From: Spelaeicoccus albus
GTDB taxonomy: Bacteria > Actinomycetota > Actinomycetes > Actinomycetales > Brevibacteriaceae
Assembly: GCF_013409065.1 (NCBI RefSeq)
Contig: NZ_JACBZP010000001.1
Span: 496,001-560,000, forward strand
Reading direction: 5' to 3'
Length of the DNA stretch: 64,000 bases
Below the pieces are notes generated by a model. The model saw only the letters and a program-made list of their open reading frames with translations, was not told where the DNA came from and did no database searches. The position numbers and the translations under genes are program-made. Shown one piece after another: positions 7,184 to 42,061 of this stretch (positions are counted from its first letter, which is position 1; each line of letters begins with the position of its first letter).

Positions 7184-8293
7184 TCAGGCGTCGACCACCA
7201 GATCGTCGGTCGGCTTCGAGCAGCACGGCAGGAACCGTCCGGCATCGATCTCCGCCGGCGTGATACCGCCCTGGTGGTGCATGTCGACGGCGCCGCCGGT
7301 CAACGTGGACTTGCACGTGCCGCAGATCCCCTCCGTGCAGGACGACGGCAGCGAGAGCCCGGCTTTTCCGGCTGCTTCCAGCACCGTCGAGTCCGCGGGG
7401 CAGTCGATCACCCGCCCGCGGCGCTGGAAGGTCACTGTGAAAGTCGCGGTTGCCGACGAGGCCGCCGACACGCCGCCCGGGTCGCTGATTCCGCCCGGCG
7501 CCGCGTCCGCGTCGCCGCCGATCACGAAACTCTCCGTGTGCACCCGGCCGGAGTCGGCGCCGGCGGCGGACGCCGCGTCGACTGCCATGCTTCGAAATCC
7601 CTCCGGCCCGCACACGAAGATCTCACGCACGGCAAGATCGGGTACCAGCGCCAAAAGCCGCCCGGCGTTCAACCGCGCCGGAGCCGGCCCGCCGGGTGCG
7701 GCGCGGCGCGTGAGGATGGTGCGCACGTGCGCGCCGGAGGCCGCCATGGCATCGAGCTCGGCGTCGAAGATGACGTCATCCGGAGTCGCAGCGCTGTAGA
7801 CGAAGGCGATGTCCGCTCCCTTGCCGGCATCGATCAGCCGGCGTGCCATGGACATGACCGGCGTAATGCCGCTGCCTGCCGCAATGAACGCGTAGGAAGC
7901 CGCGGAGTCCGATGCGAGAGTGAAATACCCGACCGGGCCGACCACGTCGATCTCGTCGCCAACGCGCATCCGGTCGTGCAGCCACGTCGAGACCGCGCCG
8001 GCCGGCTTGCGTTTCACGGTCAGCGCGAGACCGGGCCGGCTCGGAGTCGAACTGAGCGTGAAGCACCTGCCGATATCGCGGCCGTCGATGCGGGCCAGCA
8101 CCGTAACGTATTGGCCGGCCTCGTAGTCGAAGTCATATCCGTCGCACGGCGCGAAGCGGAAGGTCTTCACCGCCCGGGCGACCTGCTCGATGCCGGTGCA
8201 CGTCAGCCGCCGGACGGCGCCCGGCTCCGGCGGGCTCGCCGTTTCGGCACCAAGCGGGCCGGCCAGGCCGATGGGGCCGGTCAGCGTGGTCAT
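7184..8293 (-). CDS. FAD/[2Fe-2S] reductase component of a Rieske N-demethylase (GbcB-like)
   Basis: A 369-residue electron-transfer protein. It has a ferredoxin-NADP reductase module with the flavin motif RCFTLSS (76-82) and NAD-binding GSGITP (140-145), then a C-terminal plant-type [2Fe-2S] domain with Cys319, Cys324, Cys327 and Cys357 (C-x4-C-x2-C-x29-C). This order is that of GbcB (glycine betaine), the partner of Stc2 (stachydrine) and CntB (carnitine). It supplies NAD(P)H electrons to the Rieske oxygenase encoded just upstream. Its ATG overlaps the oxygenase TGA (ATGA at 8290-8293), so translation is coupled. A linker of about 25 Gly/Ala/Asp-rich residues separates the domains. Confidence 0.85.
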   Translation of the reverse strand: MTTLTGPIGLAGPLGAETASPPEPGAVRRLTCTGIEQVARAVKTFRFAPCDGYDFDYEAGQYVTVLARIDGRDIGRCFTLSSTPSRPGLALTVKRKPAGAVSTWLHDRMRVGDEIDVVGPVGYFTLASDSAASYAFIAAGSGITPVMSMARRLIDAGKGADIAFVYSAATPDDVIFDAELDAMAASGAHVRTILTRRAAPGGPAPARLNAGRLLALVPDLAVREIFVCGPEGFRSMAVDAASAAGADSGRVHTESFVIGGDADAAPGGISDPGGVSAASSATATFTVTFQRRGRVIDCPADSTVLEAAGKAGLSLPSSCTEGICGTCKSTLTGGAVDMHHQGGITPAEIDAGRFLPCCSKPTDDLVVDA

Positions 8294-9588
8294 CCGGACT
8301 CTCCCGTCGATCGCCCGGCGGGCTCCGGCCGGGGCTCGCCCGCATTCATGGCATCGATGTACCAGCTACAGAACTTCTCGACCTGGTATTCGCTGGGCGC
8401 GTACGGCCCGGGTTCATAGGCCGGGCTGGAGACCCCCAGCTGTGCCCTGGCGACTATCTCGCCGTCCTGCTCATTGGTGTGGTTCCATACGGTGGTGAGT
8501 TCGTCGAGGTCGTAATCGATGCCTTCTTCGGCCTCTGCGTCGACGAGCCAGGTGGTGCGGACCACGGTCGTGGACACGGTCAGCGGCAGCACGCTGAAGA
8601 CGACCGCGTGATCACTGAGCACGTGCGACCAGAAATTCGGCTGCACGTGCATCGACAGCCGGCCCAGCCTTTTATCGGTGAAGCCGCCCAGCGACCGCCG
8701 GCACACTGCCGACCCGTCGGCGCTGAACGATTCGCCGGCGCCGTCCAACGATTCACGCTGTATTCGGAATCCGACGTCGCGCCCGTCGAGCTCTTCAATT
8801 GCTTCGTACGGCAGGCCTGCCGCATCGCACTTGGCGTGCAGATCGTTCTCGGCCGCCAGAAATCTGTCGTAGGCCGGGAGCAGGTTCGGCGGGATCTCGT
8901 CGGGCTCGTACCCGTAGGTCGGAAAGAACGTGCAGATCAGTTCCGGGTGGTTATCGCAGTGATAGCACTCCCGGTTGTTCTCCATCACGAGTTTCCAGTT
9001 GCCGTGTTCGACGATCTCGGACCGGGCCGCGACCTTGGCGTTCTTCAGCCCGTGCGGTGCCAGATACGGGCTGACAAGTCCGGCGACGGTGTCGATATCG
9101 GCAGGCGGATCGGCAGCCAGGCAGATGAAGATCAGCCCATCGAGGGAGCGCACGTGTACGGACCGCAGGGCGAAACACGTCTTGTCGAAGTTCGGCGGCT
9201 GGGCCGGCGCGAACATCAGTTCCCCGTTGGTGCGATACGTCCACTTGTGATATCCGCACACAATATTGCCGACGGTTCCGCATGTCTCGTCGAGCAGCCG
9301 GGTACCGCGGTGCCGGCAGACGTTGTGCATGGCGCGAACGTCGTCCCCGTCGCGGATGACTATCACGGATTGATGGCCGAAGGTCACTGTCAGGTAGTCG
9401 CCGGTCCTCGGTATTTCGGCCTCGGTGCCGGCGAAGATCCACTGCGAGGAGAAGACCCGGTCGATGTCTTCGGCAAAGATCTCCGCGCTTGTGTAAAACG
9501 GGCCCTCCAAGCTGAACCCGGGCCGTCGGCGGACCGGCAAGGGCAGGGCGCCGGTGACCGGCCCTGCCGGCGGCGCGAACGTGGTCAT
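8290..9588 (-). CDS. Rieske non-haem iron oxygenase, betaine-type N-demethylase (GbcA/Stc2-like)
   Basis: A 432-residue aromatic-ring-hydroxylase alpha-subunit homologue. The Rieske cluster ligands are Cys91-x-His93 and Cys111-x2-His114 (CRHRGTRL, CGYHKW). The mononuclear iron site is NRECYHCDNHPEL with His210 and His214 and the bridging Glu207, a pattern matching GbcA/Stc2-type quaternary-amine demethylases rather than ring dioxygenases. Expected reaction: O2- and NAD(P)H-dependent removal of one N-methyl group as formaldehyde from a quaternary amine. Overlapping ATGA junctions on both sides tie it to the reductase and the flavoprotein gene. Glycine betaine, proline betaine and carnitine cannot be told apart by eye. 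Confidence 0.8.
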   Translation of the reverse strand: MTTFAPPAGPVTGALPLPVRRRPGFSLEGPFYTSAEIFAEDIDRVFSSQWIFAGTEAEIPRTGDYLTVTFGHQSVIVIRDGDDVRAMHNVCRHRGTRLLDETCGTVGNIVCGYHKWTYRTNGELMFAPAQPPNFDKTCFALRSVHVRSLDGLIFICLAADPPADIDTVAGLVSPYLAPHGLKNAKVAARSEIVEHGNWKLVMENNRECYHCDNHPELICTFFPTYGYEPDEIPPNLLPAYDRFLAAENDLHAKCDAAGLPYEAIEELDGRDVGFRIQRESLDGAGESFSADGSAVCRRSLGGFTDKRLGRLSMHVQPNFWSHVLSDHAVVFSVLPLTVSTTVVRTTWLVDAEAEEGIDYDLDELTTVWNHTNEQDGEIVARAQLGVSSPAYEPGPYAPSEYQVEKFCSWYIDAMNAGEPRPEPAGRSTGESG

Positions 9589-11654
9589 GGTTGTCTCGCT
9601 TTCTCGGGTTCGGATGTGACTGTGATCGAAAGTCGAAGCGCGTCGAGCACTGCTGCGTGAATGTTGCGTCCCGTCACGGCGTCGCCGATGCGGAACAGCT
9701 GATATCGGCCGTCCGGGTTGGTGTGCACGGTCTGCGGGCGGCCGTCCAGCAGGGCCGCCTGATCGACCTCGCCCAAGTTCGTCGATCCGGCCAACAGGTC
9801 GAAGTACGGGTCGGCCGCCGGCACCGTGCCGTGCTCGACGATGACGGCGTCGGTGTCGATGGTGAGGGTTCCGCTCGAATAGTCGCTGGCGAGTTCGGCC
9901 AGAAGACGCCCATCGGCGCCGCGCCGCAGCGAGCGCAGCCGGCGCGCAAGCGTCACCGTGACATCGTGTTCGGCGAATGCGGCAAGGTACGCCGGGGAGT
10001 TCATGCCGCCGACGTCCGGGCCGACCATCCGTTCGGGAGTCACGAAATGCACGCGGGCACCCGCCCGGGCCAGGACCTCGGCGGCGTCCAGCCCCGGATA
10101 GCCGCCGTCGTCGTCAAAGATCAGCACGTCGCCGCGCGGGCGGACAGCTCCGGAGAGCACGTCCCACGTATCGTAGGCGAGTTCGGCCCCCGGAAGGAAC
10201 GACAAGTCGGGAATGCCGCCGGTCGCCACGATGACGACGTCCGGGTACTCGGCCAACACGTCGCCTCGTTCGGGCAGCACCCCGAAGCGGAGATCGGCAC
10301 CGGCCAGCTGCGCTTCGGACACTCGCCAATCGATGATGCCGAGCAAGTCGCGCCGCCGTTCGTTGTGCGCGGCGAGGCGCACCTGGCCGCCGGGCTTGTC
10401 GGCGGCTTCGAACAGCGTGACGCCGTGCCCGCGGCCGGCCAGTACTCGCGCCGCCTCCAATCCGGCGGGGCCCGCCCCGATGATGACGGCACGCACGGGC
10501 CGGCCGGCGTCCGGCGTCAGCTCGTGCGGAAGATCCGCCTCGCGCCCGGTCGCGGGATTATGGATGCATTTGGCAGCGCCGGCCTGGTAGATCGAGTCGA
10601 GGCAGTAGCTGGCGCCGACGCACGGCCGGATCCGGTCCTCCCGGCCCGTCGCGATCTTTTCCACCAGGTGCGGATCGGCGATCTGCGCGCGCGTCATACC
10701 GACGAGGTCGAGAAGGCCCTCGCGGACGGCGTACCGGGCAGTGGCAACGTCCGCGATCCGTGCGGCATGCATGACGGGCACGTCGAGCCGGCGCTTGATA
10801 CCGGCCGTGAAGTCGAGGAAAGGGGCGGACGGCGTGCCCATGGACGGGATGGCCCGGGCAAGCGTGGCGTCGCTGCCGATGGTGCCCTTGACGGTGCTGA
10901 TGAAGTCGATGCCGTAATCGATGTACCGGCGGGCCGCGGCGACGGCATCGGTTTCGGTGAGCCCTCCCGGGCGGTCTTCGTCGAAGGACATGCGGATGCC
11001 GACCACGAATTCCGGCCCGACCGCGCGGCGGATCGCCCGGATCACTCGGGACGGGAACGAGGCCCGGCGGTCCGGGGAACCGCCGTATTCGTCATCGCGG
11101 TGGTTGGTGGCCGGCGACAGGAATCCGTCGAGCAAGTGGCCGTAGGCCTCGAGTTCGATGCCGTCGAGTCCGGCATCCTTGCACCGTTCGGCGGCCGCGG
11201 TGAAGTCGCCGACTATCCGATCGAGGTCCCACGGTTCGGCGATCTTGGGCACCGACCGGTGCGCGGATTCGCGTTCGCCGGACGAATACACCAGCGGCAG
11301 CCAGTCTCCGATGAAATTGCTTGTGCGACGGCCCAGATGAGTCACCTGGCACATCACTGCCGCGCCCTCGGCGTGCACGTCGTCGGCCAAGAGCCGCAGC
11401 CAGGGAACTATCTCATCCCGATACAGTTCGAGATTCCCAAATGCCGGCGGGCTATCGCGCGAGACGATTGCCGAGCCGCCGATCATCGTCAACCCGACGC
11501 CGCCGCGTGCCTTTTCCACGTGATAACGGCGATACCTGTCGGTGGGCATTCCGTTTTCGGCGTACGCGGGCTCGTGCGATGTGCTGACGATGCGATTGCG
11601 CAGCTTCACGTCGCGGATATGGAACGGCTGCAGCAGCGGGTCCTCGGCGGCCAT
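9585..11654 (-). CDS. TMADH/DgcA/StcD-type flavoprotein (tertiary-amine demethylase)
   Basis: A 689-residue two-part flavoenzyme. Residues 1-340 form an old-yellow-enzyme barrel (FMN site, HLLDGFLSPATNHRDDEYGG). A Cys-rich segment follows (Cys345, Cys351, Cys363), then a pyridine-nucleotide oxidoreductase half with IIGAGPAGLEAARVL (about 391-405). This is the architecture of trimethylamine dehydrogenase, DgcA (dimethylglycine) and StcD (N-methylproline). It would act on the tertiary amine left by the Rieske enzyme. The position equivalent to TMADH Cys348 is Ala348. The start is ATG 11654 (MAAEDPLLQPFHI), matching family N-termini; a longer reading upstream would overlap the divergent LysR gene. 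Confidence 0.8.
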   Translation of the reverse strand: MAAEDPLLQPFHIRDVKLRNRIVSTSHEPAYAENGMPTDRYRRYHVEKARGGVGLTMIGGSAIVSRDSPPAFGNLELYRDEIVPWLRLLADDVHAEGAAVMCQVTHLGRRTSNFIGDWLPLVYSSGERESAHRSVPKIAEPWDLDRIVGDFTAAAERCKDAGLDGIELEAYGHLLDGFLSPATNHRDDEYGGSPDRRASFPSRVIRAIRRAVGPEFVVGIRMSFDEDRPGGLTETDAVAAARRYIDYGIDFISTVKGTIGSDATLARAIPSMGTPSAPFLDFTAGIKRRLDVPVMHAARIADVATARYAVREGLLDLVGMTRAQIADPHLVEKIATGREDRIRPCVGASYCLDSIYQAGAAKCIHNPATGREADLPHELTPDAGRPVRAVIIGAGPAGLEAARVLAGRGHGVTLFEAADKPGGQVRLAAHNERRRDLLGIIDWRVSEAQLAGADLRFGVLPERGDVLAEYPDVVIVATGGIPDLSFLPGAELAYDTWDVLSGAVRPRGDVLIFDDDGGYPGLDAAEVLARAGARVHFVTPERMVGPDVGGMNSPAYLAAFAEHDVTVTLARRLRSLRRGADGRLLAELASDYSSGTLTIDTDAVIVEHGTVPAADPYFDLLAGSTNLGEVDQAALLDGRPQTVHTNPDGRYQLFRIGDAVTGRNIHAAVLDALRLSITVTSEPEKARQP

Positions 11655-11726
11655 ACCTTCACTATCGCGCGAAAGATCACTGAATAATAGCGAAGAAAAT
11701 CTCAGCAAACCGATTAAAATTATTAC
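11655..11726. promoter_or_regulatory. Divergent promoter region between the demethylase cluster and its LysR gene
   Basis: A 72-bp AT-rich intergenic stretch between the flavoprotein start and the LysR start. It contains an inverted pair AATAAT (11683-11688) and ATTATT (11719-11724) and a TTCACT/ACTGAA near-palindrome on the flavoprotein side. LysR-type regulators usually bind such divergent regions, so this is the expected site of autoregulation and of inducer-dependent activation. No experimentally defined operator is claimed. Confidence 0.5.
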
Positions 11727-12641
11727 ATGATCGACCACCGTCTTCAGGTGTTGCGCGTGGTCGCCGAAATGGGCACTGTCACAGCAGCCGCCCGGGCGTT
11801 GAATTACACGCCATCGGCGGTCACGCACCAGCTGCGCGGACTAGCCGAGGACGTCGGCGCACCGCTGACGGTGCCGCACGGACGGAATATCCGGCTGACG
11901 CCGGCTGCCCGGGTACTTCTTGCCCACGCCGACGAATTATTTGCCCGCTGGGAAGAGATTCGCGCCGAATTGTCCGAGAGTCTTCCGGACGCCGGCGTCG
12001 GCACTCTCACGCTGTGCGGCTTCTCCACGGCGGCTGCCGCCTTGCTGCCGTCCGTCGTCGTCGCGGTACGACAGCGATTCGCCCGCTTGGATGTGCACAT
12101 CATCGAAGCCGACCCGGAGGAATGTTTCGACTTGCTGCTCACCGACGATGCGGATGTCGCAGTTGTCGTGGCGACGAGTTCGCTACCGCAGTCCGGCGAC
12201 CGGCGATTTGACCAGCGGCTTCTCTTTGACGACCCGCTCGACCTACTCGTGCCGGCCGACCATCCGCTGGCCGGTCGCCAGCGGGTACGGCTGAGCGAAG
12301 CGGCAAGCGAGCCGTGGATCGTCGACAGACCGGGGCGGCCGTATCGCGGCCTCGTGCTTGCCGCGTGTTCGGCAGCCGGATTCACCCCTGCCGTGGCGCA
12401 CGAGTCGTCGGAGTGGGATACCGGCGCAGCCCTCGTATCGGCCGGTCTCGGAGTCGCGTTGGTTCCTCGGCTGGCACGATTGCCGCACGGATACCGGGTC
12501 GAGCGAATCCGCCTGCTCGGCGACCCGGCGCCGTCGCGCCGCATTCTTACCGGCGTGCGGGCCGGAAGCCGTTCTCAGCCGGGTATCGCGGCCGCACTGG
12601 ATGCGCTTGTCGAGACGGCGGATCGGGTGCACGCCGGGTAG
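11727..12641 (+). CDS. LysR-family transcriptional regulator of the demethylase cluster
   Basis: A 304-residue LysR protein. The N-terminal winged HTH runs over residues 1-60 (LQVLRVVAEMGTVTAAARAL, then TPSAVTHQLRGL), and the C-terminal substrate-binding fold contains LLLTDDADVAVV and LLVPADHPLAGR. It is divergent from, and 72 bp away from, the flavoprotein-Rieske-reductase operon, the classic LysR arrangement, so it is inferred to sense the quaternary amine or a metabolite and control the operon. A strong terminator hairpin follows 65 bp downstream. Confidence 0.85.
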   Translation: MIDHRLQVLRVVAEMGTVTAAARALNYTPSAVTHQLRGLAEDVGAPLTVPHGRNIRLTPAARVLLAHADELFARWEEIRAELSESLPDAGVGTLTLCGFSTAAAALLPSVVVAVRQRFARLDVHIIEADPEECFDLLLTDDADVAVVVATSSLPQSGDRRFDQRLLFDDPLDLLVPADHPLAGRQRVRLSEAASEPWIVDRPGRPYRGLVLAACSAAGFTPAVAHESSEWDTGAALVSAGLGVALVPRLARLPHGYRVERIRLLGDPAPSRRILTGVRAGSRSQPGIAAALDALVETADRVHAG

Positions 12642-14608: not shown

Positions 14609-15412
14609 ATGAGCACTCCTCCCCAGGGCCCTCCCCCTCAAGGGCCTCCGCAGGGCCCGCCTCCGCAGGGGCCTCCGCCCCCGGGGCCGGGCGCACCGTG
14701 GCCGAATACCCCGGGCCCGAGCAACCAGTACCCCCGGCAGTATCCGCAGTACCCCGGACAGCACTATCCGCAGAACGGCGGATGGGGCCCGGGCCCTCCC
14801 GGTCCTCCGTACGGCAACGGCCGTCGTCCGAAAAAAAGCAAGGGTTGGGTGTGGATGCTCAGCGGAGGCGCCTTTCTGCTGGTGATTCTGGTCGTGGGCG
14901 CATTCATCGGCTTGAACGCGTTGAGCAAGAACAGCGGCATGTCACACGACGTCGTGTCCATGGATGACGGCCATGACGACCCGCCGGCCGCCGGTCACCC
15001 CAGCCGGTCGCCGTCCGAAAACCCCTCGCCGTCCGAAAGCCCGTCACCGTCCGACTCGACCGACGGCGCCGAGTCCGACGACTACGGAACGGGCTCCTGC
15101 ATTGTCGGAAATTCGACAAACGTCATCGAGGTCGATTGCTCTGCAGCGCACTTGGCGCAGATTTATTACGAAGAAGAATTGCCGGACAGTTCGTACCCGG
15201 ATAAGGCGGCACTCAAAGCAGCCGCCGAGCGCATCTGCCCCAAGCATGTCAAGGGCGCCGTCGACTCGGGCACTGTGACAAGCAAGTACCGGATCTCCTG
15301 GCTTGCCCCCGACCGCACCAAATGGGAAACCGACGGCGATCATCACATTTACTGCCTCGTGATGCGCAAGGACGGCAAACACTTCACCGGCACCAAACTC
15401 TTGACGCAGTAG
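14609..15412 (+). CDS. Pro-rich single-pass membrane protein with secreted C-terminal domain
   Basis: A 267-residue protein. Residues 1-75 are a Pro/Gln/Gly/Tyr-rich cytoplasmic tail (repeated QGPPPQGPP and YPQYPGQ), then RRPKKSKG, one membrane helix (WMLSGGAFLLVILVVGAFIGL), a Ser/Pro/Glu linker (SPSENPSPSESPSPSDS) and a C-terminal globular domain with Cys pairs in GSCIVGNS, EVDCSAAH, ERICPKH and YCLVMRK. The layout resembles actinobacterial septum-formation or DUF4190-type envelope proteins, but I do not recognise a named family. The ATG at 14609 is preferred to the TTG two codons upstream. Confidence 0.75.
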   Translation: MSTPPQGPPPQGPPQGPPPQGPPPPGPGAPWPNTPGPSNQYPRQYPQYPGQHYPQNGGWGPGPPGPPYGNGRRPKKSKGWVWMLSGGAFLLVILVVGAFIGLNALSKNSGMSHDVVSMDDGHDDPPAAGHPSRSPSENPSPSESPSPSDSTDGAESDDYGTGSCIVGNSTNVIEVDCSAAHLAQIYYEEELPDSSYPDKAALKAAAERICPKHVKGAVDSGTVTSKYRISWLAPDRTKWETDGDHHIYCLVMRKDGKHFTGTKLLTQ

Positions 15413-15489
15413 CTCCGGCCGCGACGACGGCAGATTGCCGCTTGCCCGAAGGCCGCGGAATCAATGGGCGGTTTGCACACGTTGCCCTA

Positions 15490-15545
15490 GTGCACCGCCG
15501 AACGGAGGCGGTGCACGGCCGGGCGGAGACGCCCACCTGGGCGTC
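15490..15545. repeat. Two perfect inverted repeats in the leader of the ene-reductase gene
   Basis: A 10-bp perfect inverted repeat, GTGCACCGCC (15490-15499) and GGCGGTGCAC (15507-15516), is followed 12 bp later by GACGCCCA (15528-15535) and TGGGCGTC (15538-15545). Neither has a T-run. They sit 35-90 bp before the start of the NamA-type gene, in a 167-bp gap, so they may be operator sites or a transcript hairpin; a terminator for the upstream gene is the alternative. Confidence 0.5.
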
Positions 15546-15579
15546 CCGGCCGGTTTCCCAGCATTTGTCAGGAGACCCA

Positions 15580-16650
15580 TTGAGCACGTTGTTCGAACCC
15601 TACCGTTTGCGCGGCATCACCTTTCCCAACCGGATATGGCTGGCCCCGATGTGCCAGTATTCGTCCATCGACGGCCTGCCCAATGATTGGCATCTCGTCC
15701 ATCTCGGAGCTCGCGTAACCGGAGGATTCGGGCTTGTCCTCACCGAAGCGGCCGCAGTCGTCCCCGAGGGGCGCATTTCACCGCAGGACGCCGGAATCTG
15801 GAACGACGAGCAGGCCGACGCGTGGAAGCGCATCACCGATTTCGCCCACGAGCACGGCACTCCGATCGGCATCCAGCTCGCCCATGCCGGCCGCAAGGCT
15901 TCGACATATCGGCCATGGGACGCCCGGACCGGGAGCGTGCCGATTTCGGACGGCGGCTGGCAGACGCTCGCGCCGTCGTCGGTTCCATTCGATGGATTCA
16001 AAGAGCCCGCCGCCATGAGCCCCGCCGAGATCGCCGACACGATCCAGGCTTTTGTGGACGCTGCGCAGCGTGCCGATGCGGCTGGTTTCGACGTGGTGGA
16101 ATTGCATGCGGCGCACGGCTACCTACTGCACCAGTTCTTGTCCCCGTTGTCGAACGAGCGGAACGACGAGTACGGCGGCGATTTCGAGGGCCGGATCCGG
16201 CTCGTGGTGGAGACCGCGAGCGCCGTCCGCGCCGCTTGGCCCGATCACAAGCCGTTGTTGGTGCGCATTTCGGGCACCGATTGGCACGAGGGCGGCTGGA
16301 CGATCGAAGAAAGCACCGAGCTGGGCCGCCGGCTGAAGACCGTGGGCGTCGATCTTGTCGACGTCTCGAGCGGGGGCAATGTCAAAGCGTCGATCCCGGT
16401 CGGCCCGGGGTATCAGGTTCCGCTGTCGGCCGCAGTGCACGACGCGATACCCACCGGCGCGGTCGGGCTGATCACCGAGCCCCGCCAGGCCGAAAAAGTG
16501 CTCGACAACGGCGAGGCGGACGTCGTCCTGCTGGCCAGGGCCGCGCTGCGGGAGCCGGCGTGGCCGCTGCGGGCCGCCCACGATTTGGGGATTGCGAGCG
16601 CGGACGCCGGTTGGCCGCGCCAATACGAACGCGGCGCCTGGCGCGACTGA
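15580..16650 (+). CDS. namA: NADPH dehydrogenase / ene-reductase of the old yellow enzyme family (NamA/YqjM-like)
   Basis: A 356-residue FMN barrel enzyme that reduces activated C=C bonds (enones, quinones, nitro compounds) with NADPH. Class III OYE signatures: NRIWLAPMCQYSS near the start with the regulatory Cys, QLAHAGRKA, VVELHAAHGYLLHQFLSP and NERNDEYGGDFEGRIR. The start is TTG 15580, preceded by AGGAGA at 15570-15575; the protein then begins LSTLFEPYRLRGI, exactly the family N-terminus. It converges on clpB, with palindromic element A1 between. Confidence 0.87.
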   Translation: MSTLFEPYRLRGITFPNRIWLAPMCQYSSIDGLPNDWHLVHLGARVTGGFGLVLTEAAAVVPEGRISPQDAGIWNDEQADAWKRITDFAHEHGTPIGIQLAHAGRKASTYRPWDARTGSVPISDGGWQTLAPSSVPFDGFKEPAAMSPAEIADTIQAFVDAAQRADAAGFDVVELHAAHGYLLHQFLSPLSNERNDEYGGDFEGRIRLVVETASAVRAAWPDHKPLLVRISGTDWHEGGWTIEESTELGRRLKTVGVDLVDVSSGGNVKASIPVGPGYQVPLSAAVHDAIPTGAVGLITEPRQAEKVLDNGEADVVLLARAALREPAWPLRAAHDLGIASADAGWPRQYERGAWRD

Positions 16651-41026: not shown

Positions 41027-41158
41027 TTGAAGAGTCGGGGCTGCGATCGACGAATCGCAAGCCACCGCCTGTCGGGCCCATCTCAACCCCCGCGGGGCGC
41101 CATTGTCGGGTGCCCACGCAGGTGCTGGGCCATCGCAATAATCACGAGGAGGATAAAA

Positions 41159-42061
41159 GTGACTGAGACTGTTACCCAAATCGAGGATGCATACCCCACC
41201 CGGTCGGTCGACCGGCCGAATGTGATCGACCGTCCCGATCCGACGGTTTGGGGAAGCGGCCGCGAAGGTCCGCTTGATTCGGCCACGGTGCGGCATTACA
41301 ACGACAACGGCTACCTCACGATCGACCAATTGGTGACGCCAGCCGAGCTTCAGGAAATGAAAGACGAGCTCGAGCGGCTGTCGGAAGATCCCGTCGTCCG
41401 CGCCGACGAGCGCACGATTGTCGAGCCGGCTTCGCAGGGCGTTCGGTCGATCTTCGAAATTCACAACACCAGCGAGGTATTCAAGAAGATCGCCCACGAT
41501 CCGCGAGTAGTGAACCGAGCCCGTCAACTGCTCGGGTCGGATGTGTACATCCACCAGAGCCGCGTGAACTTCAAGCCGGGATTCGAAGGCAAGGAGTTCT
41601 CCTGGCACTCGGATTTCGAGACGTGGCATGCCGAAGACGGGATGCCTCGCACGCGTGCCGTCAGCATTTCCATTTCACTCACGCGGAACTATTCGTTCAA
41701 CGGTCCGCTGATGATCATGCCGGGGTCGCACACGAAGTTCGTTCAGTGCGTCGGCAAGACGCCCGAGGACAATTACAAGCAGTCGCTGCAGATGCAGGGG
41801 CCGGGAACCCCGGACAAGAAGACGCTTGAAGGTTTTGCCGACAAGTACGGCATCGATGTGCTCGAGGGCGAAGCCGGCGGGGCGATCATGTTCGACTCGA
41901 ACTGCATGCACGCGTCGAACAGCAACATCACGCCGTTCGCCCGCTCGAACGTGTTCATCGTGTACAACAGCGTGGAGAACGCCTGCGGCGAACCGTTCGC
42001 CGCGCCGAAGGCCCGTCCGGAATTCGCCGGATCGCGGGACTTCACCCCGGCCGGCCAGTAG
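41159..42061 (+). CDS. ectD: Ectoine hydroxylase EctD
   Basis: A 300-residue Fe(II)/2-oxoglutarate dioxygenase that converts ectoine to 5-hydroxyectoine, a compatible solute protective against salt and heat. The EctD signature is FSWHSDFETWHAEDGMPRTR, with iron ligands His150 and Asp152; the third ligand is His251 in CMHASNSN, and Arg262 is placed to bind 2-oxoglutarate. Length matches characterised EctD proteins. The start is GTG 41159, preceded by GAGGAGGA. ectABC are not nearby, so ectoine must come from elsewhere in the genome or from uptake. A palindromic element follows the stop. Confidence 0.95.
   Translation: MTETVTQIEDAYPTRSVDRPNVIDRPDPTVWGSGREGPLDSATVRHYNDNGYLTIDQLVTPAELQEMKDELERLSEDPVVRADERTIVEPASQGVRSIFEIHNTSEVFKKIAHDPRVVNRARQLLGSDVYIHQSRVNFKPGFEGKEFSWHSDFETWHAEDGMPRTRAVSISISLTRNYSFNGPLMIMPGSHTKFVQCVGKTPEDNYKQSLQMQGPGTPDKKTLEGFADKYGIDVLEGEAGGAIMFDSNCMHASNSNITPFARSNVFIVYNSVENACGEPFAAPKARPEFAGSRDFTPAGQ

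Follow-up and report, generated by a model that had tools for sequence, protein, structure and literature searches.

A LysR-linked three-gene cluster of Spelaeicoccus albus with a predicted role in proline betaine demethylation

The gene cluster and its surroundings

The current study concerns a 64-kb window of the single-contig 4.03-Mb genome of the actinobacterium Spelaeicoccus albus (NZ_JACBZP010000001.1, positions 496001-560000), in which genes for a reductase, a Rieske oxygenase, and an OYE-type flavoprotein lie in a row and face a LysR-type regulator gene (Table 1). On balance, sequence comparisons favor a LysR-controlled three-gene operon that would remove both N-methyl groups from proline betaine (stachydrine), and the substrate class is best read as proline betaine or another imino-acid betaine. 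The gene arrangement given in a preliminary description of the locus was borne out by the open reading frames (ORFs), the junctions, and the Pfam domains: an ATGA overlap is found at the flavoprotein/Rieske and at the Rieske/reductase junction, and the LysR gene is divergent, the start codons of the flavoprotein (ATG 11654) and LysR (ATG 11727) genes being 72 bp apart. The 747-aa mechanical ORF of the flavoprotein begins at an upstream GTG overlapping the LysR gene; we chose M59 (11654), which is the most likely start.

Table 1. Features of the cluster (positions in the window)
Feature	Position	Strand	Evidence
Reductase of the Rieske system, GbcB-like	7184..8293	-	Pfam FAD_binding_6/NAD_binding_1/Fer2 (FAD, NAD, and plant-type 2Fe-2S domains); NCBIfam GbcB 238.8 bits, below the cut-off of 500
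Rieske oxygenase, group Vb	8290..9588	-	Pfam Rieske/Ring_hydroxyl_A; NCBIfam GbcA 388 bits, below the cut-off of 670; Stc2 structures 351 bits
OYE-type flavoprotein of the StcD/HpbA clade, probable N-methylproline demethylase	9585..11654	-	Pfam Oxidored_FMN/Pyr_redox_2; 53-55% identity to annotated HpbA; tree
72-bp divergent intergenic region, presumed LysR-controlled promoter region	11655..11726	.	Sequence; regulation predicted
LysR-family regulator	11727..12641	+	Pfam HTH_1/LysR_substrate; identities to LysR genes of other loci

The arrangement goes beyond chance: consecutive genes for flavoprotein, Rieske protein, and reductase, together with a LysR gene, occur in the window and in eight other actinobacterial loci (Sciscionella marina, S. 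sediminilitoris, a Nocardioidaceae metagenome-assembled genome, G257, G267, G381, G631, and G645). The LysR gene is located past the reductase gene or, as in the window, ahead of the flavoprotein gene in five of these eight, and both layouts were seen. The LysR protein shares 53-65% identity with those encoded beside flavoprotein-linked Rieske genes and 45-47% with those of the DMGDH-linked loci L050, L056, and L060. A gene for a DAO-family flavin oxidoreductase follows the reductase gene in G267 (L061, 12103-13449) and G645 (L141, 12867-14198), and these proteins have no NCBIfam match at 1e-35. In agreement with the preliminary description, which had noted the absence of dgcB, electron-transfer flavoprotein (ETF), and sarcosine oxidase genes from the locus, tblastn searches (E <= 1e-5) for DgcB, ETF subunits, SoxA, SoxB, DMGDH, PurU, and PutA found no match anywhere in the window.

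The same description had also connected the cluster with ectD. This gene (41027-42061) is real, its product exceeding the cut-off for ectoine hydroxylase (418.6 versus 336.5 bits), but it is located 28 kb away and nothing was seen that links it to the cluster. An aldo-keto reductase gene adjoins ectD, and none of the ten window proteins scanned with it is an ectABC product.

Affiliation of the flavoprotein and the Rieske oxygenase

The flavoprotein combines OYE and pyridine-nucleotide-disulfide oxidoreductase domains (Pfam), and its top annotated matches among plasmid records are Paracoccus HpbA proteins, designated N-methyl-L-proline N-demethylase. Plasmid pSymB of Sinorhizobium meliloti 1021 contains one place that matches at E <= 1e-20 (51% identity), which we infer to be stcD, the N-methylproline demethylase gene located on pSymB according to an excerpt of PMC12239276. 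In a tree of 23 of 31 rows (omitted were seven repeats or fragments as well as a duplicate of the own-genome paralogue; L049 and L074 are incomplete, and one protein represents those of the Brevibacterium-like relatives), the flavoprotein grouped with HpbA, the pSymB protein, and actinobacterial relatives (support, 97/99). The root was the own-genome paralogue, for which a long-branch warning applies. Outside this group are two DgcA proteins of Sphaerotilus and Burkholderia multivorans (42-43% identity), recognized by their dgcB, glyA, ETF-alpha, and gbcAB neighbors. The identity as a DgcA dimethylglycine demethylase was rejected on the basis of this position, of the lack of a DgcB relative in the window, and of a genome whose only CCG-domain protein is YdiJ-like, so that the search for dgcB elsewhere proposed at the outset yielded no DgcB-like protein. 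Also rejected was a trimethylamine dehydrogenase type with four cluster cysteines, as the flavoprotein has three of the four: the second Cys of the 4Fe-4S motif of the trimethylamine dehydrogenase/FadH type is Ala in 22 of the 23 tree rows, including the DgcA, StcD, and HpbA types, and is retained in the own-genome paralogue. From its sequence, the flavoprotein is thus a probable N-methylproline demethylase of the StcD/HpbA type. A second, short OYE-family gene is found at 15322-16650, 2.7 kb past the LysR gene (29-30% identity to the flavoprotein).

The Rieske protein has the Rieske ligands C91, H93, C111, and H114, the iron ligands H210, H214, and D375, and furthermore E207 as bridging residue, the Cys pair C208/C211, and N205, all with roles assigned by analogy with CntA and Stc2. 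The Cys pair and the bridging Glu are described for related Rieske enzymes in an excerpt of PMC10952381. According to the part of PMC7948474 considered here, Asn in the place of CntA Tyr203 marks clade Vb, the glycine and proline betaine demethylases (GbcA, BmoA, and Stc2). In our alignment, from which the correspondence was drawn, N205 aligns with Tyr203 and all 52 aligned rows have Asn, which places the protein in group Vb as delimited in that excerpt. W368 aligns with Stc2 Trp353 in the structure-search alignment, a residue that contacts bound proline (PMC10952381, excerpt).

In a 53-row tree, from which 15 of 68 rows were omitted as repeats of the same gene, the Rieske protein is located within a 45-row actinobacterial clade (100/98) that adjoins proteobacterial GbcA and is separate from Stc2. 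The kinship with Stc2 expected in the preliminary description was not upheld, since a clade in which Stc2 and the Ensifer protein join 23 actinobacterial rows was rejected (p-AU, 8.3e-6; L084 was additionally omitted from the p-AU tests and the residue comparison on the tree). For a single clade of all flavoprotein-type actinobacterial Rieske proteins, a group defined after the tree had been seen, p-AU was 0.048. The score for the GbcA equivalog NF058607 (Table 1) is a weak test, since none of 297 genomes of the order reaches the cut-off, DMGDH/sox-linked proteins included. The linkage to dgcAB, DMGDH, or sox genes expected of GbcA is absent from the window. As the actinobacterial clade also has DMGDH/sox-linked members, phylogeny of the Rieske protein alone cannot name its substrate.

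A candidate marker is E373, two residues ahead of the iron ligand Asp375. In a comparison of 22, 11, and 4 selected rows, Glu is present in all 22 of the flavoprotein type, four of which (G170, G184, G291, and G100) have no flavoprotein gene within 12 kb, and is replaced in all 11 of the DMGDH/sox/dgc type (Asp in six, Leu in four, Gln in one). The Ensifer protein has Glu; Stc2, a counter-case, has Asp. Y225 is another candidate position, with Phe or Trp in the DMGDH/sox-linked proteins. Counting the proteobacterial rows, gene context shifts four or more times across the Rieske tree, and E373 tracks it in each of the three independent pairs that lie on supported branches (p, 0.25 by sign test, three pairs being too few for the test). 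For this comparison, the label "flavoprotein-linked" was extended to G230, G042, and the Ensifer protein. A possible exception is L002, on a 4-kb contig with unseen context, which has Glu within a DMGDH/sox-type clade.

Gene context, genome background, and substrate

Thirty-three distinct actinobacterial Rieske loci, chosen by us rather than drawn at random (L119-L126 because the genome has the flavoprotein; L127 was omitted as a repeat of L049), were compared, the flanks often being shorter than 12 kb on one side. Seventeen have the flavoprotein within 12 kb, ten have DMGDH, SoxA, or PurU relatives, none has both, and six have neither; among the latter, the flavoprotein gene is found at 9.4 kb by coordinates in G042 and at 13.4 kb in G230. 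In the sample of 297 genomes of the order, 23 encode the flavoprotein, including 15 of the 23 Brevibacterium-like relatives (designated g2; the assignment to Brevibacterium is by inference). Each of these 15 carries at least one full-length Rieske gene, and 13 carry two, the second being DMGDH- or sox-linked in the three inspected genomes (G128, G042, and G291). Of the remaining eight g2 genomes, a full-length Rieske gene is present only in G252, where it is sox/DMGDH-linked. A proline-racemase-family gene follows the flavoprotein gene in 10 of 16 g2 loci, and its product has kept both Cys-Gly motifs. In G395, putA lies at a distance of 1 kb from the gene of a deeper-branching flavoprotein relative (44-45% identity), and a LysR-like gene separates the two. 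Proteins of 1,167 and 1,181 aa near two Brevibacterium-like flavoprotein genes, considered as PutA, are SNF2-type helicases. Three small genomes of one genus (1.6-1.8 Mb; L143, L144, and L074 of G634, G600, and G646) encode a flavoprotein with 52-54% identity and have no Rieske gene.

The preferred reading as a proline betaine operon builds on the order of the genes, on the families and clades to which they belong, on conserved ligands and linkage in relatives, and on the presence of PutA in the genome. In the predicted scheme, which extends to substrate, reaction order, electron acceptor, co-transcription, and regulation, the Rieske oxygenase and its NAD(P)H reductase would hydroxylate one N-methyl group, which would be lost as formaldehyde to leave N-methylproline, and the StcD/HpbA-type flavoprotein would oxidize the second N-methyl group to yield proline and formaldehyde. 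The electrons of the flavoprotein would pass to an acceptor encoded elsewhere, perhaps ETF, which we propose because the homologue of Rhizobium johnstonii adjoins etfBA. The resulting proline could enter PutA. The term "self-contained" used at the outset did not hold for the electron acceptor, the transporter, and PutA, none of which is in the cluster; it applies at most to the two demethylations, with formaldehyde handling not assigned to the cluster either. The original proposal of a route from proline betaine to proline gained support from the grouping of the flavoprotein with StcD/HpbA and not DgcA, the context of its relatives, which points toward proline, and the group Vb Asn, and lost some from the position of the Rieske protein.

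Several observations weigh against a proline betaine operon. The Rieske protein is placed outside the Stc2 clade and is more similar to proteobacterial GbcA (50-51% identity) than to Stc2 (43%), and no transporter was identified adjoining the cluster. Proline was seen in Stc2 crystals that had been supplied with stachydrine or N-methylproline (excerpts of PMC10952381 and PMC4014116), so that a Rieske enzyme may need no partner for the second methyl group. The two genes are also not always coupled: in a draw of 394 genomes of the class, nine encode the flavoprotein (E <= 1e-100) and nine the Rieske protein (E <= 1e-60), with both in four, and five of the nine flavoprotein carriers lack the Rieske gene. 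In G641, the flavoprotein gene has no Rieske neighbor and is located about 4 kb from soxA. The distance between the two genes is 139 kb in G170 and 74 kb in G086, and they are on separate contigs in G100, G184, and G291. Two genomes of the order sample, G033 and G251, encode the flavoprotein but no full-length Rieske protein of the family; three others, G049, G093, and G163, carry a Stc2-like Rieske gene on a contig other than that of the flavoprotein gene. The Stc2-like proteins of the latter (L015, L014, and L012, respectively) group with Stc2 (100/99), a second pairing with an StcD/HpbA-type flavoprotein within the order.

The genome itself adds to these points. It contains soxB and soxA above the cut-offs, a soxG-like gene below the cut-off, and purU, with sox about 1.1 Mb from the cluster; we take a small gene between soxB and soxA for soxD. 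A DMGDH-like gene occurs with an ETF-alpha-like gene and one that we take, by position, for ETF-beta. BetT is also encoded, as are BetB- and BetA-like proteins below the cut-offs. Because of the sarcosine oxidase and the DMGDH-like gene, the strongest competing reading is a glycine betaine route in trans, which we nevertheless regard as unlikely: the Rieske pair would produce dimethylglycine, the flavoprotein or the DMGDH-like protein encoded elsewhere would produce sarcosine, and sarcosine oxidase would finish the pathway. Besides the genes named, including those from choline to betaine, it is consistent with GbcA as the closest characterized proteobacterial relative type of the Rieske protein by identity, with the DMGDH/sox-linked members of its clade, and with a window gene that is the sole Rieske gene of its family in the genome. 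However, the StcD/HpbA-type flavoprotein outside the DgcA clade has no obvious part in this route, dgcB is absent, and the required genes are not in the window. Moreover, flavoprotein-linked and DMGDH/sox/PurU-linked Rieske loci show zero overlap among the 33 examined, and the second Rieske gene of most flavoprotein-bearing g2 genomes is, where inspected, the DMGDH- or sox-linked one. The DMGDH-like protein shares just 33-39% identity with nine proteins from such clusters, which share 38-84% among themselves.

Slightly less likely still is another imino-acid betaine, e.g., 4-hydroxyproline betaine or pipecolate betaine, as the main substrate. The g2 racemase-family genes point in this direction, since the family includes hydroxyproline epimerases, and S. 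albus has two such genes, one of which reaches the cut-off for 4-hydroxyproline epimerase and neighbors oxidase and DapA-like genes. Both are about 1.6 Mb from the cluster, however, the g2 protein stays below the cut-off of each of the two NCBIfam models it matched (racemase and dehydratase), and the neighbor in G395 is putA. A carnitine or choline oxygenase cluster is very improbable: the Rieske protein does match CntA structures (99 bits), but its best structure matches are Stc2 entries (351 bits) and 3n0q (340 bits), and N205 is found in place of Tyr203 of CntA, the Asn being the mark of clade Vb in the excerpt of PMC7948474. The refuting outcome named at the outset, a Rieske protein that clusters with carnitine enzymes, was not observed. 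The genome also encodes two BCCT transporters, their genes lying roughly 0.3 and 1.4 Mb away.

Implications and comparison with known systems

If the proline betaine reading is true, stachydrine catabolism reaches several actinobacterial families, with a Rieske half that was recruited separately and a flavoprotein half that is shared. We tentatively propose, with somewhat less confidence than the operon function itself, that actinobacteria made their own proline betaine demethylase from a glycine-betaine-type Rieske protein, separately from rhizobial Stc2, and combined it with the shared StcD/HpbA flavoprotein; context would have switched at least four times on the tree, with E373 as candidate switch marker. 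Among the papers listed in literature searches (titles and abstract openings; 25 of 897 and 15 of 197 hits in two of them), none dealt with an actinobacterial proline betaine demethylase. For annotation, an StcD/HpbA-type flavoprotein beside a "GbcA" gene argues against labeling a cluster as glycine betaine demethylation, and the comparison provides a short residue list for how these oxygenases distinguish betaines.

Glycine betaine demethylation proceeds with GbcAB and either DgcAB (Sphaerotilus and Burkholderia) or DMGDH and sarcosine oxidase (actinobacteria). The Rieske protein and the reductase of the window are related to this system, whereas the flavoprotein is not DgcA, and dgcB, etf, glyA, DMGDH, and sox are not in the window. 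With the trimethylamine dehydrogenase/FadH family the flavoprotein shares the domain layout but not the second cluster Cys; like the StcD, HpbA, and DgcA rows examined, it has Ala there.

The rhizobial and Paracoccus stachydrine pathway (Stc2 plus StcD/HpbA) has a flavoprotein of the same clade and a Rieske protein with a reductase partner. In Ensifer canadensis, genes for an StcD-type flavoprotein, a Rieske protein, a reductase, and a LysR regulator are located together as in the window, accompanied by an ABC transporter for proline/glycine betaine and a gene resembling that of pyrroline-5-carboxylate reductase. A dimethylsulfoniopropionate-lyase-like cupin gene lies beside the StcD-type gene in three rhizobia (L087, 12083-15133; L090, 10112-10717; L088, 9349-9939). 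Unlike in these systems, the ProU transporter, TetR, pyrroline-5-carboxylate-reductase-like, and cupin genes are not beside the window cluster, and its Rieske protein groups apart from Stc2 and the Ensifer protein. Whereas the pathway has been described in root-nodule bacteria, the first enzyme here is from another branch of its family. The operon is best read as a two-step analogue of the Stc2-StcD pathway whose Rieske subunit comes from outside the Stc2 clade.

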